A stretch of DNA of 64,000 nt, taken from assembly GCF_040838345.1 (NCBI RefSeq), contig NZ_JBAKFF010000001.1, positions 434,001 through 498,000 on the forward strand. The letters are read 5' to 3'. Origin of the DNA: Spiribacter sp. 1M189 (GTDB taxonomy: Bacteria > Pseudomonadota > Gammaproteobacteria > Nitrococcales > Nitrococcaceae). Each line of letters begins with the position of its first letter. Within the stretch, counting starts at the first letter, position 1. This document shows, in pieces, positions 9,781-59,227 of the stretch. A program made the translations under genes and the position numbers. The notes beneath the pieces are model-generated. The model had not been told where the DNA came from. It was given only the letters and a program-made list of their open reading frames with translations, and made no database searches.

Positions 9781-10398
9781 ATGCTTCAGGTCATCCATAC
9801 GATTGATCGTTTCACGACATGGGTCGGGCGGAGCTTCGCCTGGCTCATCCTCCTCATGGCCTTCGGCATGGGCTATGAGGTGATATCGCGTTACCTGTTC
9901 AGCGCACCAACCGCCTGGGCGTATGACATGTCGTACATCCTCTACGGCACCCTGTTCATGGTGGGGGGTGCGTACACGCTGTCGCGGAACGCGCATGTGC
10001 GTGGTGACTTCCTCTATCGGCTCTGGAAACCGCGGACCCAGGCCACGGTTGAGCTGATTCTGTATTTCCTATTCTTCTTTCCGGGGATTCTTGCGCTGGT
10101 GTTTGCGGGCTGGAAGTATGCCGCCCGCTCCTGGCAGTACATGGAGACAAGTGTCTTCTCGCCCGCCGGTGTGCCGATTTTCCACTTCAAGACAATGCTC
10201 GTGGTGGGCGCTGTTCTGTTACTGATTCAGGGTGTCGCGCAGGTCTGCCGCTGTCTTGTCTGCATTCGTACCGGTGAATGGCCGGCCGACGTACGGGATG
10301 TCACTGAACTTGAGGACCAGCTGCTGGAGAGCGGCGGCCAGGACGAGGCGGTCGACCCGTTGGATGATGTATCAACAACGCGAGGTAGCGAGCGATGA
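9781..10398 (+). CDS. TRAP transporter small permease (DctQ type)
   Basis: This 205-residue protein has four predicted membrane helices (starting around residues 18, 55, 95 and 138), typical of the TRAP small membrane subunit (DctQ fold). The conserved RxxxxxxPTAW element after the first helix is visible (VISRYLFSAPTAWAYD). It pairs with the large permease to form the Na+-driven importer. The hydrophilic, acidic C-terminal tail of about 40 residues is somewhat long. Its stop overlaps the large permease start by 4 bases. Confidence 0.88.
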   Translation: MLQVIHTIDRFTTWVGRSFAWLILLMAFGMGYEVISRYLFSAPTAWAYDMSYILYGTLFMVGGAYTLSRNAHVRGDFLYRLWKPRTQATVELILYFLFFFPGILALVFAGWKYAARSWQYMETSVFSPAGVPIFHFKTMLVVGAVLLLIQGVAQVCRCLVCIRTGEWPADVRDVTELEDQLLESGGQDEAVDPLDDVSTTRGSER

Positions 10399-11813
10399 CC
10401 GAACCCCAAATCGGGATTCTGATGCTGGTGGTTTTCATCCTCTGCATCTTTTTGGGGTTCCCCATCGCCTTTACCTTGATGGCGCTGGGTATCGCCTTTG
10501 GCTATTTCGCCTATTTCGACGCCGGCCGCATGTGGCGAGGCTATGATCGGCTGGTCGAGCAGGGCGCGGAGGGCTGGCAGGTCTGGCAGGCCTATATTGA
10601 AGGATTTCTGAACAACCGCATTTTCGACCTGTTCGTCAACCAGACCTACTCGGTCATGGCGAATGAAGTGCTGACCGCGGTGCCGCTTTTCCTCTTCATG
10701 GGCTACATCGTCGAGCGCTCGAACATCGTCGAGCGCCTGTTCTCGACTCTCTACATCGCCGCGCGCCGAGTCCCGGGCGCGATGGCAGTGGCGGCGCTCA
10801 TCACCTGCACGTTATTCGCGACGGCCACTGGCATCGTTGGCGCGGTGGTCACACTGATGGGTCTGCTGGCACTGCCGGCAATGCTGAATGCCCGCTACAA
10901 CCAGTCATTCGCCTCGGGCGTCATCTGCGCCGGCGGGACGTTGGGCATTCTCATTCCACCCTCGATCATGCTGATCGTCTATGCGGCGGCGACGGGGACG
11001 TCGATCGTCCGGCTTTATGCCGGCGCGCTGTTTCCCGGGCTGTTGCTGGCCGGGCTCTACATCACGTACATCGTGGTGCGCAGCCTGCTGCAGCCCTCAG
11101 TGGCACCCAAGCCAACGGATGACGAGGTGGGTGACATTCCCGTTGCCAAGCTCATCATCATGATCCTGACCTCGTTCGTGCCGCTGGCGGTGCTGATACT
11201 CGCGGTGCTCGGGTCCATTCTTTTCGGCCTGGCGACCCCCACCGAGGCCGCCTCCGCCGGTGCCCTGGGCGGGCTGCTCCTGGCCGCCATCTATCGGGCG
11301 CTGACCTGGGAGAAGCTGCGTGAGTCGGTCTATCTCACGCTCAAGACAACGGCCATGGTCTGCTGGCTTTTCGTGGGGTCGTGGACCTTCTCGTCGGTTT
11401 TCTCGTATCTCGGCGGGGAGCACCTGATCACCGAGTTCGTCACCGGGCTCGATCTCAACACCGTGACCTTCCTGATCCTGGCGCAGCTGATCATCTTTCT
11501 GCTCGGCTGGCCGCTCGAGTGGTCCGAGATCATCATTATTTTCGTGCCCATCTTCCTGCCGCTACTGGAGATCTTTGGCGTTGACCCGCTGTTTTTTGGC
11601 ATCCTCGTCGCGCTGAACCTGCAGACTTCGTTCCTGACGCCGCCGATGGCCATGTCGGCCTACTACCTGAAGGGGATTGCTCCCCCATCCGTGCAACTGG
11701 TGCAGATATTCAAGGGCTGTATGCCATTCCTGTTCTTCGTGGTCCTGGCGATGGTGCTGCTTTACAACTTCCCGCAGCTCGTCTACTGGCTCCCGGATAC
11801 CGTCTATGGTTAA
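10395..11813 (+). CDS. TRAP transporter large permease (DctM type)
   Basis: This 472-residue integral membrane protein with about 12 helices is the DctM family transport subunit. Recognisable pieces include ILMLVVFILCIFLGFPIAF at the N-terminus, GGTLGILIPPSIMLIVYA near residue 178, and GLATPTEAASAGALGGLLLA near residue 277, the helical-hairpin region that binds Na+ and substrate. An insertion between helices 1 and 2 (residues about 45-85) is typical of the mannitol/chloroaromatic/2-oxo-acid subgroup. The stop overlaps the amidase start by 8 bases, so transporter and amidase are probably translated from one mRNA. Confidence 0.9.
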   Translation: MTEPQIGILMLVVFILCIFLGFPIAFTLMALGIAFGYFAYFDAGRMWRGYDRLVEQGAEGWQVWQAYIEGFLNNRIFDLFVNQTYSVMANEVLTAVPLFLFMGYIVERSNIVERLFSTLYIAARRVPGAMAVAALITCTLFATATGIVGAVVTLMGLLALPAMLNARYNQSFASGVICAGGTLGILIPPSIMLIVYAAATGTSIVRLYAGALFPGLLLAGLYITYIVVRSLLQPSVAPKPTDDEVGDIPVAKLIIMILTSFVPLAVLILAVLGSILFGLATPTEAASAGALGGLLLAAIYRALTWEKLRESVYLTLKTTAMVCWLFVGSWTFSSVFSYLGGEHLITEFVTGLDLNTVTFLILAQLIIFLLGWPLEWSEIIIIFVPIFLPLLEIFGVDPLFFGILVALNLQTSFLTPPMAMSAYYLKGIAPPSVQLVQIFKGCMPFLFFVVLAMVLLYNFPQLVYWLPDTVYG

Positions 11814-13164
11814 GCGCATCGCGGTGGGTGAGCCGGCCGATCTGTCGGCCAGTGACGCGCTGGAGGCGATGGCTGAGGGCGCGCTCTCGGCGCAGGCGCT
11901 GACGGAGGCCTGCCTGGCGCGTATTGACACGGCCGACCCTCAGGTCCAGGCCTGGACGCAGGTTGATCATCGTCGCGCGGTTTTCGAGGCCCGCGCGCAG
12001 GACCGGCGGCGCGCCGACGGTCTGCCGCTCCCGGCCCTGCATGGTGTGCCGGTCGGCCTCAAGGACATTATTGATGCCAAAGGGCTGGCCACTGAGAACG
12101 GCACGCCTCTGGATGCAGGCAACCGGCCTTCGGAAGACGCCACCATCGTGCGGCGTCTGCGCGATGCCGGGGCGGTCATCGTCGGCAAGACCGTCACCGC
12201 TGAACTCGCCTATTTTCATCCCGGCGTGACCCGTAATCCGCATGATCCCGAGCGCACACCCGGTGGCTCGTCGAGTGGTGCGGCGGCCGCAGTGGCCGCC
12301 GGCATGGTGCCGTTTGCGGTTGGTACGCAGACCAATGGATCGGTCATTCGGCCGGCGTCTTTCTGCGGCGTCGTGGGCTATAAGCCGAGCTATGGCACGG
12401 TGCCACGGACGGGCATTCTGCAGGGCGCGCAGAGTCTGGATCAGGTCGGGTTCTTCGCCCGCAGCGTCGAGGATGTCGCCCTCGCTGGCGAGCTGATGGG
12501 GCCTGACGGTGTCGATGAGGACTGTCACCTGAACGCGGGGCCGCTGCGCGAGACGGTACTCTCAGAGCCGCCGTTGACGCCTGACCTTGCCATGGTGGAA
12601 ACACCGTTCTGGGATCGAGCGGCCGCGGATACTCGGGATGGTTTCGCGGAATTGCTCGACGTTTTGGGCGACCACGGCACCGCCGCTGGACTGCCGGAGG
12701 TATTCGGCCGCGGCGCCGGCTGGTTAGCCACTGTCATGGCGGCGGAAATGGGACGTAATCTGGGCCACTACGCAGACCGCGACCCCGATCAGGTCAGCGC
12801 TACGTTCAAGGCGCTCATCGAGCAGGGCCGGTCGATCCATGCGGTGGATTATCTGGCGGCTCGGGATATGCAGGCCGTGATGCGCGAGGCGCTCGATCCG
12901 CTCTTTGAGCGCTTCGATGCCATTCTGACGCCGTCGGCCCCCAGCGAAGCACCCCGCGACCTTGATACCACCGGGGACCCGATTTTCTGTACGCTGTGGA
13001 CATTCTGTGGGCTCCCGGCGGTTACATTGCCCCTGCTCGCCGGTGAGAATGGCCTGCCCATCGGGGTGCAGCTTGTCGGGCCCTACGGCCAGGATGCCAA
13101 ACTGCTGCGAACGGCCCGCTGGCTGGCTCGTCTTTGCGCTGCCAATGTGGAGGAGTCGGGATGA
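11806..13164 (+). CDS. Amidase-signature family hydrolase
   Basis: This 452-residue enzyme has the amidase signature. The catalytic Lys lies in VGLKDIIDA near residue 87, the cis-Ser in TPGGSSSGAAAA near residue 152, and the nucleophile Ser in QTNGSVIRPASFCG near residue 176. The start at 11806 sits inside the end of the TRAP permease gene; the frame can be opened further upstream only within that gene. It should hydrolyse a carboxamide in the cytosol, most plausibly the compound imported by the TRAP system. The signature region is like that of allophanate-hydrolase/GatA relatives, but no GatB/GatC is nearby, so it is not the tRNA amidotransferase. Confidence 0.85.
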   Translation: MVKRIAVGEPADLSASDALEAMAEGALSAQALTEACLARIDTADPQVQAWTQVDHRRAVFEARAQDRRRADGLPLPALHGVPVGLKDIIDAKGLATENGTPLDAGNRPSEDATIVRRLRDAGAVIVGKTVTAELAYFHPGVTRNPHDPERTPGGSSSGAAAAVAAGMVPFAVGTQTNGSVIRPASFCGVVGYKPSYGTVPRTGILQGAQSLDQVGFFARSVEDVALAGELMGPDGVDEDCHLNAGPLRETVLSEPPLTPDLAMVETPFWDRAAADTRDGFAELLDVLGDHGTAAGLPEVFGRGAGWLATVMAAEMGRNLGHYADRDPDQVSATFKALIEQGRSIHAVDYLAARDMQAVMREALDPLFERFDAILTPSAPSEAPRDLDTTGDPIFCTLWTFCGLPAVTLPLLAGENGLPIGVQLVGPYGQDAKLLRTARWLARLCAANVEESG

Positions 13165-13882: not shown

Positions 13883-14082
13883 GTCGTTATCCTCTCGTGA
13901 ATGGCTGGCCGATTCGCCAAATGCTCTGCGCTCAAGTGTCGAGGATAATGCGGGTCAAGTCGAGCGGCGATGGCATGACCCGCTGGCGCGTCGCTCCCGC
14001 GATTCAGCTGCAGGAGGTCGAAGCAATGCAAAAATCGCTTGACAAACTGGGGATTACTGCCACACCTTTTAACCAACGTCGT

Positions 14083-14232
14083 GAGCAGTGGCGCTCCTCG
14101 GAGGTCAGCCTGCTGAGGCAGGGGACTCCAACGGCGACTTAGAGAATCGTGAATATGGTTGGCCATCGATACGGTGGTCAAAGGGCATCGGAGCCCCCCG
14201 ACTGGCAGCAAGCTGGTCTGGGGGTTTTTTTT
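14083..14232 (+). promoter_or_regulatory. Putative ANTAR (AmiR) antitermination leader: two AxxGxx hexaloop hairpins plus terminator
   Basis: The 360-base gap between tpx and amiC holds this leader. Hairpin P1 is 14083-14096: stem GAGC/GCTC, loop AGTGGC. Hairpin P2 is 14183-14196: stem GGGC/GCCC, loop ATCGGA. Both loops are six bases with A at position 1 and G at position 4, the hallmark of RNAs bound by ANTAR-domain proteins. The 3' strand of P2 is also the first part of the terminator stem at 14194-14224, so P2 and the terminator exclude each other. The 86-base linker is long for this class but holds two stable hairpins of its own (about 14100-14132 and 14161-14179). AmiR, an ANTAR protein, is encoded two genes downstream. 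A TTGACA hexamer at 14039 could be a -35 box, but its -10 is weak. The stems are short, so chance is not excluded. Confidence 0.55.
14194..14232 (+). terminator. Intrinsic terminator directly in front of amiC
   Basis: Six C (14194-14199) pair with five G (14220-14224) across an imperfect inner hairpin (GAC/GTC and CAG/CTG pairs), followed by eight T (14225-14232). The amiC ATG follows only ten bases later. A strong terminator before the first gene of an operon, rather than after the last, implies regulated read-through. It overlaps the second ANTAR-like hairpin. Confidence 0.85.
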
Positions 14233-14242
14233 GAGGGGCCGG

Positions 14243-15394
14243 ATGCTCAAAGAAAACATCAAGGTCGGCTGGTTGTTCTCCGAGACGGGTTCATACGGTG
14301 CGCTCGGACGAAGCATGCGGGCCGGCGCAACGCTGGCGGTGGATGAGATCAACGCCAATCCGACCTACGACTTTCAGATCGAACCGGTGCTTGTAGACCC
14401 GGGAGGCGAGACTGCCCGATACGCGGATGCCGCACGCGAACTGATGAGCAACTATGGCACGACGCATATCTGTGGTTGCTACACGTCAGCAAGCCGGAAA
14501 GAGATTCTTCCGGTAGTTGAGAAAAGGGACGCCCTGCTCTGGTATCCCTCGCATTACGAAGGCTTTGAAACGAACGATAACATTATTTACACCGGCGCAT
14601 CGCCGAATCAGCACATCATCCCACTCAGCCGCTATTTAATTGAACACCACGGCGCGCGGGGGTGGTTTGTCGGATCCAACTATGTGTGGGCATGGGAGAA
14701 TAATCGGATACTTCGGGAGGCATTGATATCCGCAGGTGGATTAGTGTTTGGCGAGCGCTATTTCCCGGTGGGCGATGTAGACTTCGGTAATCTGCCAGAG
14801 ACGATCATAGAAAATTCTCCGGACTTCGTCTTCGTAACGCTCATTGGGAATTCCTGCTACCGTTTTATAAAACGGCTTCGCGAGGCGGCTGCGAAAGCTG
14901 GTGTCGATCAACCTGCAACAATGCCTGTGGCGAGCTGCAGCCTGTCGGAAGCGGAACTGCCCTTCTTGGGTGATGAAGCCGATGGGCATCTCTGCTCATC
15001 GGTGTATTTCTCGACGGTCGATACGCCCGAGAATCATACATTCACGACTCGCTGGAACGCTTTTTACGCGGATCAGGGGGAGGCATCGGCTGATGCGGAA
15101 GCCACCTATATCGCTATGCATCTGCTCGCTCAGGCCATCCATCGGAGCGGCAGTATTGAGTTGGACGAGGTCAGAGAGGCCGTCACAAAGCTCGAATTCA
15201 GAGCGCCTCAGGGGCAGCTGAGGGTGGATTCAGACAATCTGCATTGCGAGATGCGGCCGCGGATCGGGCGATCGAACGTCAACGGTCGGTTTGACATCAT
15301 TCAGGAGGCGCATACTCCCGTGCGTCCGGACCCCTATCTCGTCTGGACCGAATGTCTGGACCGGCCGAAGACCGGCCTGCGGATAGCCCAGTGA
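14243..15394 (+). CDS. amiC: AmiC-type amide sensor / negative regulator of AmiR
   Basis: This 383-residue protein (Pseudomonas AmiC is 385) has a periplasmic-binding-protein type I fold but no signal peptide: it begins MLKENIKVGWLFSETGSYGA, so it stays in the cytosol. In Pseudomonas, AmiC sequesters AmiR until a small amide binds and releases it. The start at 14243 follows GAGGGG and lies just past the terminator T-run; an in-frame start at 14159 would have to be translated through the terminator and is rejected. The stop overlaps the GTG of amiR. The base composition is clearly more AT-rich than tpx or gltX. Confidence 0.9.
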   Translation: MLKENIKVGWLFSETGSYGALGRSMRAGATLAVDEINANPTYDFQIEPVLVDPGGETARYADAARELMSNYGTTHICGCYTSASRKEILPVVEKRDALLWYPSHYEGFETNDNIIYTGASPNQHIIPLSRYLIEHHGARGWFVGSNYVWAWENNRILREALISAGGLVFGERYFPVGDVDFGNLPETIIENSPDFVFVTLIGNSCYRFIKRLREAAAKAGVDQPATMPVASCSLSEAELPFLGDEADGHLCSSVYFSTVDTPENHTFTTRWNAFYADQGEASADAEATYIAMHLLAQAIHRSGSIELDEVREAVTKLEFRAPQGQLRVDSDNLHCEMRPRIGRSNVNGRFDIIQEAHTPVRPDPYLVWTECLDRPKTGLRIAQ

Positions 15395-16008
15395 GCCGGC
15401 GAATCAAGAACAACTTCCGTGGCTGTCAGGTCCTGATCGTGGCCGACGACGAGCTGAATTGCCAGCATCTGGAGCGCGCGCTTTTCCGCCTGGGTATGCA
15501 TGCTCATCGGTGTCGCGCAAATGAGCTGAACCGGATGGCGCTGCCGGCCTTGGACCTCGTGATCTTCGATGCCGACCAGGAAGATGAGCTTGCCTCACTC
15601 TCGGAGCTGGCTGGCGAACCCGCCCTCATTGCCTTGATCGGCAATGAGGCGCCGAGTCGGCTGAGCCGGGTTGTCGCGCTTGGATGCGACAGCCATATCA
15701 CCAAGCCCATCCGAACACTGGGTATCTATTCGGCGGTGGTGCTCGCGGCGAATGGACGTGCGGCACGTGCCGAGCTCAAGAAAAAAATCGCCCACCTGAA
15801 TCAGCGCATATTAGGTCGAAAAACACTGATCCGCGCTGTGGTCCGTTTGACTCAATATCATCAAATCGACGAGAGCGACGCCTATGACTACTTGCGTAAG
15901 GAGGCGATGTCGCGACGGATTTCCATCGAAGAAGCTGCAGACCAATACTTGCAGATGCAGACGAGTTCATCCGATTTCCGGGTGTTGAATGAAGAGCGAA
16001 AGGAGTGA
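15391..16008 (+). CDS. amiR: AmiR-type ANTAR antiterminator
   Basis: At 205 residues (Pseudomonas AmiR 196) it has an N-terminal receiver-like domain, a coiled-coil linker (RAARAELKKKIAHLNQRILG) and a C-terminal ANTAR three-helix RNA-binding domain (residues about 150-200: ALIRAVVRL-like start, DAYDYLRKEAMSRRISIEEA). It binds paired hexaloop hairpins in nascent RNA and prevents termination. The GTG start at 15391 overlaps the amiC stop (GTGA); an upstream ATG at 15352 would add 13 residues inside amiC and lacks a ribosome site. Unlike Pseudomonas AmiR, the receiver keeps an acidic pair (VADDE), an Asp at the phospho-acceptor position (VIFDAD) and the TKP lysine. Confidence 0.88.
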   Translation: MSRRIKNNFRGCQVLIVADDELNCQHLERALFRLGMHAHRCRANELNRMALPALDLVIFDADQEDELASLSELAGEPALIALIGNEAPSRLSRVVALGCDSHITKPIRTLGIYSAVVLAANGRAARAELKKKIAHLNQRILGRKTLIRAVVRLTQYHQIDESDAYDYLRKEAMSRRISIEEAADQYLQMQTSSSDFRVLNEERKE

Positions 16009-16013
16009 ACCAG

Positions 16014-17258
16014 ATGAGTACAGTTTTTAACCTGAAGGGCGGGCTATTGAGTCTAGCCAGTGCAACTGCCTTTGCTTGGGGGGCAGCGGCTATCGCTGAT
16101 GACGAGACGATCAAAATTGGTGTACTGGAGGATCAATCCGGAGACTTCGCCGCCGCGACCAATGTCAAGGTCAATGCAATTCGCCTCGCTGCTGATGAAA
16201 TTAATGAGGCCGGAGGCATCGACGGACAACCGGTAGAGTTGGTGATCTATGACACGCAGTCCGATAACCGTCGGTACCAGGAGTTCATGCGCCGTGTACT
16301 GCAGCAGGATGAAGTCGATGTTGTATTCGCTGGCTTCTCCTCGGCATCACGCGAGGCATACCGGCCTATCGTCAATCAGTTTGACGGGCTCGCTTTCTAC
16401 AACAACCAGTACGAAGGCGGTGTCTGCGACTCCAATATGATTGTTACCGGTGCCGTTCCGGAGCAGCAGTTCTCGACACTTATCCCCTGGATGATGGAAA
16501 AGTACGGCCCCAACGTCTACACCATTGCTGCCGACTACAACTTCGGTCAGATCTCAGCCGAGTGGGTCCGGGAGATTGTCGAGGAAGAAGGTGGTTCCAT
16601 GGTGGGCGAGGAGTTCATTCCCTTGGGCGTGTCTCAATTCTCGCAGACTATCCAGAACATTCAGCAGTCCGATGCGGATTTTGTCGTGACGCTACTGGTC
16701 GGTGCCGCCCAGGCGTCGTACTACGAGCAGGCGGCCTCGGCCAACGTTGACCTCCCTATGGCATCTTCTGTCAACGTGGGTCAGGGCTACGAGCACAAGC
16801 GGTTTACCCCGCCAAGCCTCGCGGACATGTACGTAACGACCAACTATATCGAGGAAATCGACACGCCTGAGAGCAATGCATTTGTCGAGAAATTCCGTGA
16901 GATGTTCCCCGATGAGCCGTATATCAACCAGGAGGCTGCCAACTCCTACATCGCGATGAACCTGTACAAGCAGATGGTCGAGCGGGCCGGTACAACGGAT
17001 CATGATGCGATTCGGGCGGTCCTGGCCGAGGGCGATGTTTGCTTTGACGGGCCTTCTGGCCGGACATGCCTTGATCCCGAGAGCCAGCACATGTCGCACA
17101 CCATTTATCTGGCTCGGGTGAACGATGATCACAGCATTTCCTTTCCGAAGGTCTGGGATGATATCGAGCCATACTGGCTTGGTGATGCCGGTTGTGACCT
17201 GACGGTCAACGACCCGAGTGCCCAGTACACACCGTCGAACCCTCCGCCGGCTAACTAA
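16014..17258 (+). CDS. Short-chain amide/urea ABC transporter substrate-binding protein (UrtA/FmdD type)
   Basis: This 414-residue periplasmic binding protein of the branched-chain-amino-acid (type I) class has a signal peptide of about 27 residues ending AAAIAD. The mature part starts with ETIKIGVLEDQSGDFAA. It resembles UrtA and FmdD, receptors for urea, formamide and acetamide. The ATG at 16014 follows AAAGGAG at a proper distance; GTG at 16005 is possible but overlaps the Shine-Dalgarno. It follows amiR immediately and precedes the two permeases, with a strong hairpin in between. Its fold is homologous to AmiC, so sensor and receptor probably share ligands. Confidence 0.87.
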   Translation: MSTVFNLKGGLLSLASATAFAWGAAAIADDETIKIGVLEDQSGDFAAATNVKVNAIRLAADEINEAGGIDGQPVELVIYDTQSDNRRYQEFMRRVLQQDEVDVVFAGFSSASREAYRPIVNQFDGLAFYNNQYEGGVCDSNMIVTGAVPEQQFSTLIPWMMEKYGPNVYTIAADYNFGQISAEWVREIVEEEGGSMVGEEFIPLGVSQFSQTIQNIQQSDADFVVTLLVGAAQASYYEQAASANVDLPMASSVNVGQGYEHKRFTPPSLADMYVTTNYIEEIDTPESNAFVEKFREMFPDEPYINQEAANSYIAMNLYKQMVERAGTTDHDAIRAVLAEGDVCFDGPSGRTCLDPESQHMSHTIYLARVNDDHSISFPKVWDDIEPYWLGDAGCDLTVNDPSAQYTPSNPPPAN

Positions 17259-17301: not shown

Positions 17302-17331
17302 TTTCTTGTCGGTATTGAGAGGTTGTCTGTC

Positions 17332-18204
17332 ATGGAGCTGCTAGCTGCGGCATTCGCCATGTTTTATCAGTTCGGCGATGCATTCGCTTTTCTGGTTATC
17401 GCGAGCGCTGGCCTTGCCGTGATCTTCGGGATGATGCGCATCATCAATCTGGCTCATGGTGAGTTCATTATGTGCGGTGCATACGTCACGGCCGTGGCCG
17501 CGCGTACAGGGTTGCCTCTGGCGCTCGCCATTTTGCTGGGTGCGATTACAGCCGGACTTATCGGGATGCTGATCGAGCGGTTGGTGATCCGGCACCTCTA
17601 TCACAGACCACTGGATTCGATTATTGCTACTTGGGGAATCAGCCTGATTGCCACCCAGGGTGTACTTATTGTTTTGGGATCAACGATGGCTGGCATCGGC
17701 ACGCCGCTTGGCAGTGTCGAAGTCGGCGGCCAGACTTTCTCAGCCTACCGGCTGGTGCTTATGGCCTGCGCAGGGGCGCTTTTGATCGGGCTGTACCTGC
17801 TTTTCTATCACACCCGTTTCGGCGTACTGGCGAGAGCAACCATCCAGAAACCCGAGACCGCGCGAGCGTTGGGTATCGATACGCGCCGGGTCTACGGACT
17901 CACTTTCGGTCTGGGTGCGGCGCTCGCCGGACTCGCCGGAGGACTCTATGCCCCGACCATGACGATGGTTCCAACGATGGGGGCTACCTTCATCGTCGAG
18001 AGCTTCGTCACCGTTGTCGTCGGCGGCGCCGATATCTTCGTCGGAGCCGCTCCGGCTGCGGCGATTCTCGCCGTTATCAAGGCTACCCTGACGGCGGGCT
18101 ATGGACAGCTCTTCGGCCAGATCGGCCTGCTCGTTGCTGTGATCGTCGTGATTCGACTGTTACCCGGGGGTCTTTCCGCCTGGATCAAGAAGACCGGGCG
18201 CTAA
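17332..18204 (+). CDS. urtB: Amide/urea ABC transporter permease (UrtB/LivH type)
   Basis: This 290-residue membrane permease of the branched-chain amino acid/urea class has about eight helices. It contains GMMRIINLAHGEFIMCGAY near residue 30 and GLAGGLYAPTM in the C-terminal half, both typical of LivH/UrtB. The ATG at 17332 lies nine bases after GAGAGG; an in-frame TTG at 17323 is too close to that site. It is the partner of the UrtC-type permease encoded 16 bases downstream. Confidence 0.88.
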   Translation: MELLAAAFAMFYQFGDAFAFLVIASAGLAVIFGMMRIINLAHGEFIMCGAYVTAVAARTGLPLALAILLGAITAGLIGMLIERLVIRHLYHRPLDSIIATWGISLIATQGVLIVLGSTMAGIGTPLGSVEVGGQTFSAYRLVLMACAGALLIGLYLLFYHTRFGVLARATIQKPETARALGIDTRRVYGLTFGLGAALAGLAGGLYAPTMTMVPTMGATFIVESFVTVVVGGADIFVGAAPAAAILAVIKATLTAGYGQLFGQIGLLVAVIVVIRLLPGGLSAWIKKTGR

Positions 18205-18220
18205 ATCGATGGAGCCGTCA

Positions 18221-19321
18221 ATGCAGAACCGCGATGTCACCCTGACTCCCGGGACAAAGGTCGATCGAAAAAAACTCCCGATCTGGCTTTCGAGACTGGA
18301 GGGTCCTCAGACCGTTGGAAGCGGCCCCGGTTTTTGGTCACTCTTTGTTGTGGCCTTGATCGTTGCCGCTCTGTATCCGCTTTTTGCTAATGACTATGCG
18401 GTCGGGAATACCGCCTACTTCATGGTCTGGACATTCATGGCGATGGGCCTTGGCGTTGTCTGGGGCTACGCTGGCGCACTCAGCTTCGGGCAAACCGCGT
18501 TTTTCGGTCTGTCCGGGTATGCTTATGGGGTCCTGACCATCAATTTCGGTAGCGCGTACGGGTTCACTCTCCTATCGCTCCTGCTTGCTGTTGCACTTGG
18601 AGCGCTGTTCGCGCTGCTTATTGGCTATTTCATGTTCTTTGGCCGGATCCGAGGCGTATTCATTGGCATTGTTACGCTTTCAGTCACCCTCGTGCTCGAG
18701 GCCTTCATGGCGCAGACCGCAGGGCCGCAATGGGCCATCGGCAGTGCGCGGTTGAACGGATTTAACGGCATGTCCGGAATGCCGCCGCTCACTATTCCCT
18801 GGTTTGACGGCCCCATTCTACTGTATGCCGGAACGTCTCTTTACTACGTTCTGCTTGGCCTGGTGCTATTCTGCTATCTCGGTCTTCGCATGCTATTGAA
18901 TGCGCCCTTCGGCAATGTTCTCGTCGCAATAAGGGAAAATCCCGAGCGCGCCGAGATGCTTGGCTACGACATTCGTATCTACCAAATGCTCGCTTTCACC
19001 CTGGGGGGAGCGCTGGCGGGCCTCTCCGGTGTGCTCTACACGGCATGGGGCCAGTACATCACGCCATCCAGCATGGGCCTCATGTCTGCGGCGCTTCCCA
19101 TCGTCTGGGTCGCCGTTGGTGGCCGGAGCGATATCACCGCCACATTGATAGGGAGTTTGCTGGTGCTCGCGACGTTCCAGTCGTTGACGATTTACGGCAG
19201 TCAATACGCGCTGGTTGTGATGGGCGCACTGCTCCTTTTCACGGTTCTCGTGACGCCTAATGGGCTCGTTCTGGAGGCGATGCACGCGATTCGCCGTCTA
19301 ACTGGGGGGCGGGGGCAATGA
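18221..19321 (+). CDS. urtC: Amide/urea ABC transporter permease (UrtC/LivM type)
   Basis: This 366-residue permease of the LivM/UrtC group has a hydrophilic N-terminus of about 40 residues and then some ten helices. Typical elements are VWGYAGALSFGQTAFFGLSGYAYG near residue 85 (shortened motif GALSFGQTAFFGLSGY) and GRSDITATLIGSLLV near residue 300. The start at 18221 is preceded by GGAG at seven bases; ATG at 18209 is a possible alternative adding four residues. The stop overlaps the ATG of the first ATPase. Confidence 0.88.
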   Translation: MQNRDVTLTPGTKVDRKKLPIWLSRLEGPQTVGSGPGFWSLFVVALIVAALYPLFANDYAVGNTAYFMVWTFMAMGLGVVWGYAGALSFGQTAFFGLSGYAYGVLTINFGSAYGFTLLSLLLAVALGALFALLIGYFMFFGRIRGVFIGIVTLSVTLVLEAFMAQTAGPQWAIGSARLNGFNGMSGMPPLTIPWFDGPILLYAGTSLYYVLLGLVLFCYLGLRMLLNAPFGNVLVAIRENPERAEMLGYDIRIYQMLAFTLGGALAGLSGVLYTAWGQYITPSSMGLMSAALPIVWVAVGGRSDITATLIGSLLVLATFQSLTIYGSQYALVVMGALLLFTVLVTPNGLVLEAMHAIRRLTGGRGQ

Positions 19322-20037
19322 GCGACATCCTGGTGGTCGAAAAACTCAACAAGCGCTTTGGTGGAGTCGTTGTCGCCAAGGACATCGACTTTCGTTTGCC
19401 CGCGGGGAGCATACACTGCCTCATCGGTCCGAATGGCGCGGGAAAGTCCACATTTTTCCGTCTTATACTAGGCGAGCATTTACCCGATAGCGGTTCGATT
19501 CGGTACAACAATGAGGAAATCAACAGGCTTCGCGCCTTTCAAAGAATCAGGCGTGGGATCAGTGTGAAGTTCCAGGTGCCTGGAATATTCAAGGCCCTCA
19601 GTGTCAGGCAAAATCTCGCTGTGGCTTTCCAGCACCATCTCCACGGCCACACCCTCAATGCAACGATTCATAGAGTGCTTGAGTTTACTGGGCTGACGGA
19701 AGAGGTGAGCACGCCAGCCGGGAACCTTGCGCATGGTCAGCAGCAGTGGCTCGAGATCGGCATGGCAGTCGGCGTGGAGCCGTCGCTTCTCCTGCTCGAT
19801 GAACCGACGGCTGGCATGTCACCCGACGAGACGAAAAAGACCGGCGAGATGCTGCACGAACTGAATCGTCAGGATATTACTATTCTAGCCGTGGAGCACG
19901 ATATGTCGTTTGTCGAGCAGATCGCCGATGCGGTGACGGTGCTGCATTTGGGTAGTGTCTTCGCGGCGGGCACCATCAAAGAGATCGTCAATCACCCAGG
20001 TGTTCAGCAGATTTATCTGGGAGTCTCTGATGACTGA
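19318..20037 (+). CDS. urtD: Amide/urea ABC transporter ATP-binding protein (UrtD/LivG type)
   Basis: This 239-residue ATPase has Walker A GPNGAGKST near residue 39, the signature LAHGQQQWLEIGMAV near 140, which is typical for this transporter family, and Walker B LLLLDEPTAGMSP near 159. It starts on an ATGA overlapping the UrtC stop and ends with an 8-base overlap with UrtE. It forms a heterodimer with the second ATPase to drive uptake. Confidence 0.9.
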   Translation: MSDILVVEKLNKRFGGVVVAKDIDFRLPAGSIHCLIGPNGAGKSTFFRLILGEHLPDSGSIRYNNEEINRLRAFQRIRRGISVKFQVPGIFKALSVRQNLAVAFQHHLHGHTLNATIHRVLEFTGLTEEVSTPAGNLAHGQQQWLEIGMAVGVEPSLLLLDEPTAGMSPDETKKTGEMLHELNRQDITILAVEHDMSFVEQIADAVTVLHLGSVFAAGTIKEIVNHPGVQQIYLGVSDD

Positions 20038-20743
20038 GGCAAACCTTTTGAAGGCTGAGGGTCTCTGCAGTGGCTATGGTTCCGAGACCGTCCTGCAGGG
20101 GGTGGATTTCCAGATCGAACCGGGTGAAATCGTAGCAATTATCGGGCGTAACGGGGTTGGTAAGTCCACGCTGATGCGTACGCTGATTGGTCTTCTCCCC
20201 GCGTCCTCCGGCCGCATTCACTTTCACGGCGAGGACATCACCCGCTTACCGGCCGACCAACGCGCACTATCCGGTATTGGCTATATTCCCCAGGGCAGGG
20301 AGGTGTTTCCAGAGCTCTCTGTCTCGGAGAACCTTATTGTCGGCGAAGTCGCAGCCGGGCGGCGCCGGAAGCTCGAATACGAGGTGATCTATCGCTTTTT
20401 CCCGATTCTTAAGGAACGCGCCGCCCAGCGTGCCGGCACGTTGTCGGGTGGCCAGCAGCAACAGCTTGCCATCGCACGCGCCATGATTTCGAATCCATCG
20501 ATCATGTTGCTCGACGAACCGTCGGAGGGTATCCAGCCCTCGATCGTGAAAGACATCGCGAAAAACATTCATGAGCTCAACACGATGACGGATATATCCG
20601 TTCTTCTCGTCGAGCAAAATCTCGAGCTGATTACTTCCATTGCCCAGCGGGGCTATGTGATGGAGAAAGGAAGAATCGTGAAGGCGTTGTCTTCCGAAGA
20701 AATCACTTCGAGAGATGAAGTACGGAATTATCTGACTATCTAG
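20030..20743 (+). CDS. urtE: Amide/urea ABC transporter ATP-binding protein (UrtE/LivF type)
   Basis: This 237-residue second ATPase has Walker A GRNGVGKST near residue 39, the signature LSGGQQQQLAIARAM near 140, and Walker B IMLLDEPSEGIQPSIV near 160. The SEGIQP wording is characteristic of UrtE/LivF. The start at 20030 lies inside the end of urtD; longer in-frame extensions reach into urtD and are rejected. The formamidase gene follows after 23 bases. Confidence 0.9.
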   Translation: MTEANLLKAEGLCSGYGSETVLQGVDFQIEPGEIVAIIGRNGVGKSTLMRTLIGLLPASSGRIHFHGEDITRLPADQRALSGIGYIPQGREVFPELSVSENLIVGEVAAGRRRKLEYEVIYRFFPILKERAAQRAGTLSGGQQQQLAIARAMISNPSIMLLDEPSEGIQPSIVKDIAKNIHELNTMTDISVLLVEQNLELITSIAQRGYVMEKGRIVKALSSEEITSRDEVRNYLTI

Positions 20744-20766: not shown

Positions 20767-21753
20767 ATGAGCTGGCATGAATCGTCGATTATGAACCGGA
20801 AGGGCCTCGCTGGGGGAAAGCCTGGTAGACGGCACACGATAACGATCGAGGATCAGAAAAATTATCACTACGTCTACGGTCCATATGCAGAGCCGATCAT
20901 CGAGGTAGATCCGGGTGATTTGGTAACGGTGGAAACACATGATGCTTTCGAAGGACAGATTCAAAAGGAGTCGGACAAGCCTTCGGAAAAATTAAATTTT
21001 CCATACCTCAATCCGCAGACAGGACCCATTCGGATTCGGGGGGCAGAAAAGGGTGATGCGCTCGCCGTTAGGATTATCTCGATTAAGCCGCGAGGGCCCC
21101 AGCCTGTCGGTACCACTTGCCTGATCCCACACTTCGGCGCGCTGGTGCCGACTGCAGCGACGGCCATGCTCAGTCCACAGCTGCCCGAGAAGGTCAAGAA
21201 GGTTGAAGTCGATGAGCAGGGGGTCTACTGGTCTGACAAAATAACGCTGCCCTATGAGCCCTTCATCGGGACCATCGGGACGGCGCCGGAGATTGAGGCG
21301 ATATCGTCGCTCCAACCGGATTATTACGGCGGTAATATGGACCTGCCGGATGTCGCGCCCGGGAATGTGATCTATCTACCCGTCAATCGGGCGGGGGGAT
21401 TACTGTATCTCGGGGATTGCCATGCCATTCAGGGCGATGGAGAGGTTTGTGGCGTAGCGCTCGAGATACCGGCGACGGTGGAGTTGCAAGTCGATCTGGT
21501 GAAGGCGCACGGAAATGCCTGGCCTCAGCTCGAGACTGAGGATACGTTCGGATTCATCGCCTCGGCACGCCCCATGGAAGATGCGGCACGGATCGGGTAT
21601 GTGGAGCTGATTAACTGGGTCGTTGAGCAGACGGGCCAGACTCCGGAGGAGGCCTATCTTCTGTTAACGATGTGCGGGAAGGTTCGGTTAGGGAATATGG
21701 TCGATCCTAAATACACGATGGGTGTTTCGATTGAGAAGAAATTTGTTAGGTAA
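20767..21753 (+). CDS. fmdA: Acetamidase/formamidase (FmdA family)
   Basis: This 328-residue acetamidase/formamidase-family enzyme hydrolyses short amides to ammonia and the carboxylate in the cytosol. Recognised stretches are GPIRIRGAEKGDALAVRI near residue 79, GNMDLPDVAPGNVIYLPV near 192, and GLLYLGDCHAIQGDGEV near 214, the metal/active-site region with conserved Asp, His and Cys. A good ribosome site (TGAGGAG) precedes the ATG. As last gene of amiC-amiR-urtABCDE-type-fmdA, it closes a sense-import-degrade pathway for small amides used as nitrogen or carbon source. Formamide or acetamide are the most likely substrates. Confidence 0.88.
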   Translation: MSWHESSIMNRKGLAGGKPGRRHTITIEDQKNYHYVYGPYAEPIIEVDPGDLVTVETHDAFEGQIQKESDKPSEKLNFPYLNPQTGPIRIRGAEKGDALAVRIISIKPRGPQPVGTTCLIPHFGALVPTAATAMLSPQLPEKVKKVEVDEQGVYWSDKITLPYEPFIGTIGTAPEIEAISSLQPDYYGGNMDLPDVAPGNVIYLPVNRAGGLLYLGDCHAIQGDGEVCGVALEIPATVELQVDLVKAHGNAWPQLETEDTFGFIASARPMEDAARIGYVELINWVVEQTGQTPEEAYLLLTMCGKVRLGNMVDPKYTMGVSIEKKFVR

Positions 21754-58639: not shown

Positions 58640-59227
58640 ATGAGTACCGCGAATGCGGACAAGGAGTTGGTTGAGCGTGTACAGGCCGGTGACAAGCAGG
58701 CCTTCGATATGCTGGTACTCAAGTACCAGCACAAGCTCGTCAAGCTCATTTCCCGCTACGTCCACGATCACGCCGAGGCACTCGACGTCTCCCAGGAGGC
58801 CTTCATCAAGGCCTACCGGGCTCTCCCACGATTCCGTGGTGACAGCAGTTTCTACACCTGGCTCTACCGCATCGGCATCAACACGGCGAAAAATCACCTG
58901 GTCTCCCAGGGCAGACGTCCGCCGGATAACGACATCGATGCCCAGGATGCTGAACGTTACGACATCGAATCGCGTCTCAAGGATCAGGAGTCACCGGAGG
59001 CACTGGCCCAGCGTGACCAGGTGCAGGAAACCGTGATGAGTGCCATCGAGGACCTGCCGGATGATCTGCGCACCGCGATCACGCTGCGTGAATTCGAGGG
59101 ATTGACGTATGAGGAAATCGCGCAGGCAATGGACTGCCCGATCGGTACGGTTCGGTCACGGATTTTCCGTGCCCGTGAGGCAATAGATAAACGGCTCCAG
59201 CCGCTTATGTCCGGGACAGACGGGTGA
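58640..59227 (+). CDS. rpoE: RNA polymerase sigma-E factor (RpoE/AlgU)
   Basis: This 195-residue ECF sigma factor has region 2 (AFDMLVLKYQHKLVKLISRY, DVSQEAFIKAYRAL) binding the -10 and region 4 (ITLREFEGLTYEEIAQAM, GTVRSRIFRAREA) binding the -35. It responds to outer-membrane stress once RseA is cut. The ATG at 58640 follows GGAGGG. Its stop overlaps the next reading frame, which continues with the anti-sigma factor. Confidence 0.96.
   Translation: MSTANADKELVERVQAGDKQAFDMLVLKYQHKLVKLISRYVHDHAEALDVSQEAFIKAYRALPRFRGDSSFYTWLYRIGINTAKNHLVSQGRRPPDNDIDAQDAERYDIESRLKDQESPEALAQRDQVQETVMSAIEDLPDDLRTAITLREFEGLTYEEIAQAMDCPIGTVRSRIFRAREAIDKRLQPLMSGTDG

Follow-up and report, generated by a model that had tools for sequence, protein, structure and literature searches.

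A putative AmiC/AmiR antitermination leader with a long linker precedes an amide transport and hydrolysis operon in Spiribacter sp. 1M189

Main finding

In the window (the whole 64,000-nt stretch of Spiribacter sp. 1M189 DNA that was analysed), the region upstream of amiC was interpreted, from its sequence, as the AmiC/AmiR antitermination leader of an operon that encodes AmiC, AmiR, an ABC transporter and a hydrolase of the acetamidase/formamidase family (probability about 0.9). Counted against this reading were a linker longer than in the eut leaders and than the curated range, the choice of P1 and of a linker hairpin partly by pairing, the missing P1 hairpin in Halomonas and Arhodomonas, and a weak -10 box. 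Unless stated otherwise, all coordinates are those of the window and all features are on the forward strand.

Anatomy of the leader

The -35 box TTGACA (14039-14044) was read from the sequence and was missed by a consensus promoter scan; in homologs, TTGAC lies equally far from the P1 loop. A weak putative -10 box is located about 17-19 nt downstream of the -35 box. Hairpin P1 (GAGC-AGUGGC-GCUC, 14083-14096) was recognised by sequence, fold prediction, homologs and covariation, and the candidate antiterminator hairpin P2 (GGGC-AUCGGA-GCCC, 14183-14196) by sequence, fold and homologs. Both hexaloops carry A at position 1 (A1) and G at position 4 (G4), exactly as an earlier note on this DNA had read them (loops AGTGGC and ATCGGA), and both are closed by a C:G pair. 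The leader therefore has the two hairpins of at least 3 bp with six-base loops that define ANTAR-target RNAs, and its closing C:G, A1 and G4 agree with NasR SELEX (PMC7496416) and EutV data (PMC3369931).

P1 and P2 are separated by a linker of 86 nt (14097-14182). Fold prediction placed linker helices at about 14100-14129, 14134-14150 and 14159-14181, with 16 nt unpaired outside them. The last helix is a 10-bp hairpin (UUGGCCAUCG-AUA-CGGUGGUCAA, 14159-14181), here called J, directly 5' of P2, and hairpins occupy the same place in homologs.

The intrinsic terminator (14191-14232) is composed of the stem 14191-14198/14220-14227, a 7-bp upper helix and a U8 tract (T8 in the DNA) at 14225-14232, and the ATG of amiC (14243) follows the T-run by exactly ten bases. 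Sequence and fold thus agree with the earlier description of the 3' strand of P2 as part of an eight-T terminator ten bases before amiC. The minimum free energy fold of the leader includes P1 and the terminator (z = -2.96), and the terminator folded alone reached -24.4 kcal/mol. Positions 14193-14196 are claimed both by P2 and by the terminator stem, so P2 overlaps the terminator and the two pairings are mutually exclusive. When P2 was imposed on 14193-14196, the best remaining hairpin had -14.2 kcal/mol and ended 2 nt before the U-tract. The window terminator was not listed by a simple terminator scan, probably because of its internal mismatch, and none of the 4227 Rfam families reached its gathering score in the leader; permissive thresholds likewise gave no ANTAR-like family.

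Genes of the operon

The first gene, amiC (14243-15394), encodes an amide-sensor protein (Peripla_BP_5) that matches P. aeruginosa AmiC (1pea/1qo0, E 1.7e-71); it has the periplasmic-binding fold, no apparent signal peptide in its sequence (consistent with a cytoplasmic protein) and a position beside amiR. The product of amiR (15391-16008; GTG start at 15391, with ATG 15352 as alternative) contains AmiR_N and ANTAR domains (PF21332 and PF03861, both over cut-off) and matches P. aeruginosa AmiR (1qo0 chain D), which bears out the identification of the second gene in the earlier note. Pseudo-receiver, coiled coil and ANTAR domain with its conserved alanines are all present, and A149, A164 and M173 are invariant in eight AmiRs.

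Downstream, the operon encodes the substrate-binding protein of a urea/amide ABC transporter (16005-17258; apparent signal peptide; TIGR03669 598.9 bits, cut-off 494.8), an UrtB-like permease (17323-18204), an UrtC-like permease (18209-19321) and an UrtD-like ATPase (19318-20037), these three assigned by profile matches, the ATPase UrtE (20027-20743, over cut-off) and a hydrolase of the acetamidase/formamidase family (20767-21753). For this last gene, the earlier term formamidase holds at the level of the family (PF03069, E 1e-36) but not for the name FmdA, as the NCBIfam model NF045496 gave 73.1 bits against a cut-off of 500. The reading frames overlap by GTGA at the amiC/amiR and the amiR/binding protein junctions, an arrangement suggestive of translational coupling.

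The gene order of the operon recurs in the annotations of Palleronia, Paracoccus, Methylobacterium, Skermanella, Rhizobium and Shinella, and most of these operons are preceded by the same type of leader. In the same-genus locus L006 (1493-2648), amiC runs through two reading frames (matches 3-140 and 115-377), owing to a frameshift either in the gene or in the assembly. Upstream of the amide operon and on the same strand (10395-13164), the window also carries a TRAP-type permease gene followed by an Amidase-family (PF01425) gene, and this pair is separated from the operon by a minus-strand redoxin gene.

Conservation of the leader

AmiC searches in GTDB contigs, plasmids and whole genomes yielded about 55 leaders, of which 33 (window included) had a clear P1 and P2: the two of the genome itself, one from the same genus and 30 that are mostly alphaproteobacterial. 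The P1-P2-terminator plan is kept in these 33 leaders. Covariation of P1, computed over 31 distinct P1s, gave a score of 0.636, compared with 0.172 ± 0.036 for shuffled pairings (reached by 0/500 shuffles); cells with both sides changed numbered 40, compared with 16.4 after shuffling (0/500), and slid registers scored lower. The P2 stem is GGC:GCC in 32/33 leaders and, being almost invariant, carries no covariation information; this near-invariance probably arises because P2 has to match the terminator as well.

The closing C:G pair was present in 33/33 leaders, a count that reflects the selection of the leaders themselves with a closing C:G pair. Loop position A1 was found in 32/33 P1s and 28/33 P2s. 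The earlier note had looked for covarying stems with invariant A1 and G4: the P1 stem covaries and A1 is nearly invariant, but G4 is less strict (27/33 in P1 and 27/33 in P2), and A, U or C also occur in its place among relatives. In four leaders (L031, L032, L033, L035), position 4 of the P1 loop is U, C or G (AGCUCA, AAGCCU, AGUUCG, AGAGCU) and P2 loops start with G (GAGGGC, GAAGGC), perhaps a sign of changed AmiR specificity.

P1 and the linker hairpin were chosen partly by their pairing, so that pairing percentages are inflated. Because of this partial selection of the P1s, a promoter-anchored scan was run on the 38 leaders with TTGAC (criteria: closing C:G, A1, R4 and at least 4 bp). Eight leaders had a P1-type hairpin at 39-42 nt and ten had one at 46-48 nt; there was no other match 20-80 nt from TTGAC, and the matches beyond 80 nt were P2s. 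Measured from the start of TTGAC to the P1 loop, the distance is 46-48 nt in 16 leaders (48 in the window, 48 in the same-genus species and 47 in the second operon of the genome); most leaders of the Rhodobacterales type have 39-42 nt. Since this distance is nearly fixed, P1 is likely to adjoin the 5' end of the transcript.

Some leaders depart from the common plan. L046, L047 and L066-L069 (the latter upstream of amiC) have P1 and P2 loops without a usable T-run terminator, and control may there be exerted at translation or be Rho-dependent. The amiC leaders of Halomonas/Vreelandella (L018, L020, L022-L024, L027, L029) and Arhodomonas (L008/L019) carry P2-like hairpins over terminators (GAGC-AAUAGG-GCUC; GGAGC-GAAAAA-GCUCC), with no recognisable P1 at the usual place; AmiC is 47% identical in Halomonas and Arhodomonas. 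In a class-wide search of amiE leaders, most had no hexaloop pair before amiE and were of little value for comparison.

The retention of P2 without a clear P1 in Halomonas is what would be seen if AmiR needed P2 only and P1 served as a stabilising hairpin at the 5' end or had some other role, and ANTAR proteins do accept a single hairpin, at reduced affinity (PMC7496416; PMC8934654). We regard such a minor part for P1 as unlikely, however, because its loop keeps A1 in nearly all leaders, G4 in most and the closing C:G in all, none of which would be required for mere protection of a 5' end.

Chance level and the second amide operon

Hexaloop hairpins with A1 and G4 and at least 4 bp (G-U allowed) occur in the window at 0.19-0.23 per 161 nt, and at about 0.05 with Watson-Crick stems. 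A lone A1/G4 hairpin is therefore weak evidence, and the case requires the overlap of P2 with the terminator and the comparison of relatives. On both strands of the 64 kb, no 4-bp A1/R4 hexaloop with closing C:G other than P2 lies over a strong terminator. A weak P2-like hexaloop of 3 bp (GGGC-AUCGAU-GUC) precedes a T-run at 58939 on the minus strand.

The 1.95-Mb genome contains exactly two ANTAR genes. The pattern of promoter (TTGAC), P1 loop and P2 was matched about 26 times in this genome before any stem or terminator filter, which is the chance level and no commoner than in the reversed control; the scan covered two gap ranges, one on each side of 51-60 nt. Filtering for P1 stems of 4 bp or more and T-runs of 5 or longer left only two sites, the window leader and C1:658969-659060. 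The latter precedes a second amide operon (C1:658969-668050; L007, L074) with genes for a binding protein, permeases, ATPases, amiE, an AAA protein, amiC2 and amiR2, in that order, and its own P1-P2-terminator leader has a linker of 22 nt. The two filtered sites thus front the two AmiC/AmiR operons of the genome, giving two leaders for two AmiRs.

With two AmiR genes and similar targets in one genome, and with nearly equal promoter-P1 spacing (47 and 48 nt), the window leader might be controlled by the other AmiR (C1:667822) or by both, as a shared regulon. This appears quite unlikely: each AmiC-AmiR pair sits in an operon behind its own leader, the loops differ (AGUGGC/AUCGGA in the window and AGUGUU/AGAGCG in the second operon), and in many genomes the same leader type is found beside its own amiC-amiR.

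The long linker

In the accepted model, the two hairpins held by an ANTAR dimer lie a closely defined distance apart. The linkers of eut leaders measure 5-12 nt, and induction falls sharply when they are altered to 3 or 14 nt (PMC3369931); EutV antitermination in vitro is abolished by 20 added nt (PMC8934654), and longer linkers abolish EutV action both in vivo and in vitro (PMC3369931; PMC8934654). Linkers of 2-25 nt were accepted in a curated actinobacterial survey (PMC8164766). The linker of 86 nt in the window, which had escaped the earlier note, lies at the upper end of the 22-86 nt (median 40) found across the 33 leaders; 32/33 linkers exceed 25 nt and so fall outside the published 2-25 nt (5-12 nt in eut). 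On this account the leader was classed with a known type of RNA switch, as a variant with a long linker. The 2-25 nt limit combines a curation range with a requirement of EutV, and a need of AmiR for it would be presumed by analogy.

A P1 within about the known range could be sought in a nearer hairpin, GAU-ACGGUG-GUC (14168-14179), which ends three bases before P2, carries A1 and G4 and would make the 14083 hairpin irrelevant. This candidate was rejected and is judged highly improbable: it has only 3 bp and a closing U:G, as against the C:G of 33/33 leaders and of NasR SELEX, it is not conserved, and it overlaps the stronger 10-bp hairpin J. Within the published range, no nearer A1/G4 hexaloop of at least 3 bp was present in 28/33 leaders, and those of the other five have neither sequence nor place in common.

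The spacing would be naturally loose, with no folded linker bridging it, if two AmiR dimers (or a higher oligomer) bound P1 and P2 separately, or if P1 recruited AmiR that is then transferred to P2. A recruitment step and a 2:1 stoichiometry have been proposed by Walshe et al., and linker lengths do range between 22 and 86 nt. The linker of L014 has grown to 75 nt, almost twice its size, through a tandem duplication (GAGACGCGA...GTCCGGCTGCGCCGGA); minus the duplicated copy, it would have the length usual for the family. Against such loose binding, which we hold to be possible but with the odds somewhat against it, stand the strict spacing rule found for EutV and a hairpin directly 5' of P2 that recurs in many leaders and covaries, suggesting that compaction matters. 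In ten alphaproteobacterial leaders, picked since the hairpin is visible there, its covariation score was 0.900, compared with 0.218 for shuffles (0/500 reached it). If the predicted linker helices form, the unpaired remainder amounts to 2-28 nt across the leaders (16 in the window). Overall, the linkers are only slightly more structured than shuffled sequence (mean z -0.63 over 33 leaders), and the claim of compaction therefore rests on the covarying hairpin that adjoins P2.

Taken by itself, the sequence would fit one dimer spanning both hairpins across a folded linker as well as P1 recruiting AmiR that later meets P2. We consider it rather probable that leaders of amiC-amiR-transporter-amidase operons, as a class, function with 30-90 nt between P1 and P2, either because the linker is folded by a third, covarying hairpin that adjoins P2 or because no fixed distance is required by AmiR.

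Comparison with known systems

The amiEBCRS operon of P. aeruginosa likewise has an AmiC sensor, an AmiR with pseudo-receiver and ANTAR domain, and a leader whose terminator is read through on amide induction; here, in contrast, the leader lies before amiC, and in place of amiE the operon encodes an ABC transporter of the urea type together with an enzyme of the acetamidase/formamidase family. Pseudomonas AmiR is also encoded within the operon under its control. Read by eye, the amiE leader L065/L081, from a gammaproteobacterium that carries amiC-amiR next to it, appears to have a linker of some 7 nt and a U-C mismatch in P1.

EutV is activated by phosphorylation, whereas AmiR has a pseudo-receiver. 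The E. faecalis eutP/G/S/A leaders on which EutV acts share the two hexaloop hairpins, A1 and G4 and a second hairpin exclusive with the terminator, but their linkers are 5-12 nt instead of 86 nt (PMC3369931; PMC8934654). NasR/nasF of Klebsiella and NasS-NasT/nasA of Paracoccus denitrificans are also nitrogen-source antitermination systems in which P1 is essential, and NasS-NasT is a sensor-ANTAR pair as AmiC-AmiR is; they differ in ligand (nitrate/nitrite) and in the operons controlled.

The claim of the earlier note that the operon goes beyond an amidase alone is sustained by the transporter genes, but an AmiR operon with a transporter was already known from Klebsiella plasmids (PMC13209695), where amiC and amiR also come first, followed by an ABC transporter and an amidase. 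That AmiR is about 30% identical and the transporter is of another type. In the Klebsiella plasmid leader, a hairpin resembling P2 (CAGGU-AAUGAA-GCCUG) lies over a terminator, and no clear hexaloop P1 was seen by eye. Actinobacterial ANTAR-target RNAs (PMC8164766) resemble the present leaders in their dual hexaloop hairpins; they differ in that their linkers were curated to 2-25 nt, so that a search of that kind passes over most leaders found here, and in that many act at the ribosome-binding site (RBS) and not at a terminator.

Proposed mechanism and implications

We propose that the TTGACA promoter drives transcription from a start site a short way upstream of P1, and that by default the RNA would fold into the terminator (14191-14232), so that transcription would stop before amiC. 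Basal read-through would supply AmiC and AmiR, and AmiC would hold AmiR in check as long as it has not bound a small amide (or a related ligand such as urea). Once released, AmiR dimers may bind P1 and stabilise P2, which would take four bases of the terminator stem and leave a shorter stem detached from the U-tract. The polymerase could then read into amiC-amiR (amiR itself included), the ABC transporter genes and the amide hydrolase gene. The folded linker, above all the hairpin directly 5' of P2, would shorten the path from P1 to P2 and might allow one dimer to hold both.

If leaders of this class do work across such long linkers, the rule on spacing taken from EutV would lack generality, and searches for short linkers would miss leaders of this kind; that 32/33 natural leaders lie beyond the published range challenges the idea of tight spacing as essential. 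As a single genome combines two AmiR genes with one linker of 22 nt and another of 86 nt, the spacing rule, the role of P1 and that of the third hairpin are directly testable in it. The analysis also provides a regulatory reading for amide operons that are spread through the Proteobacteria.
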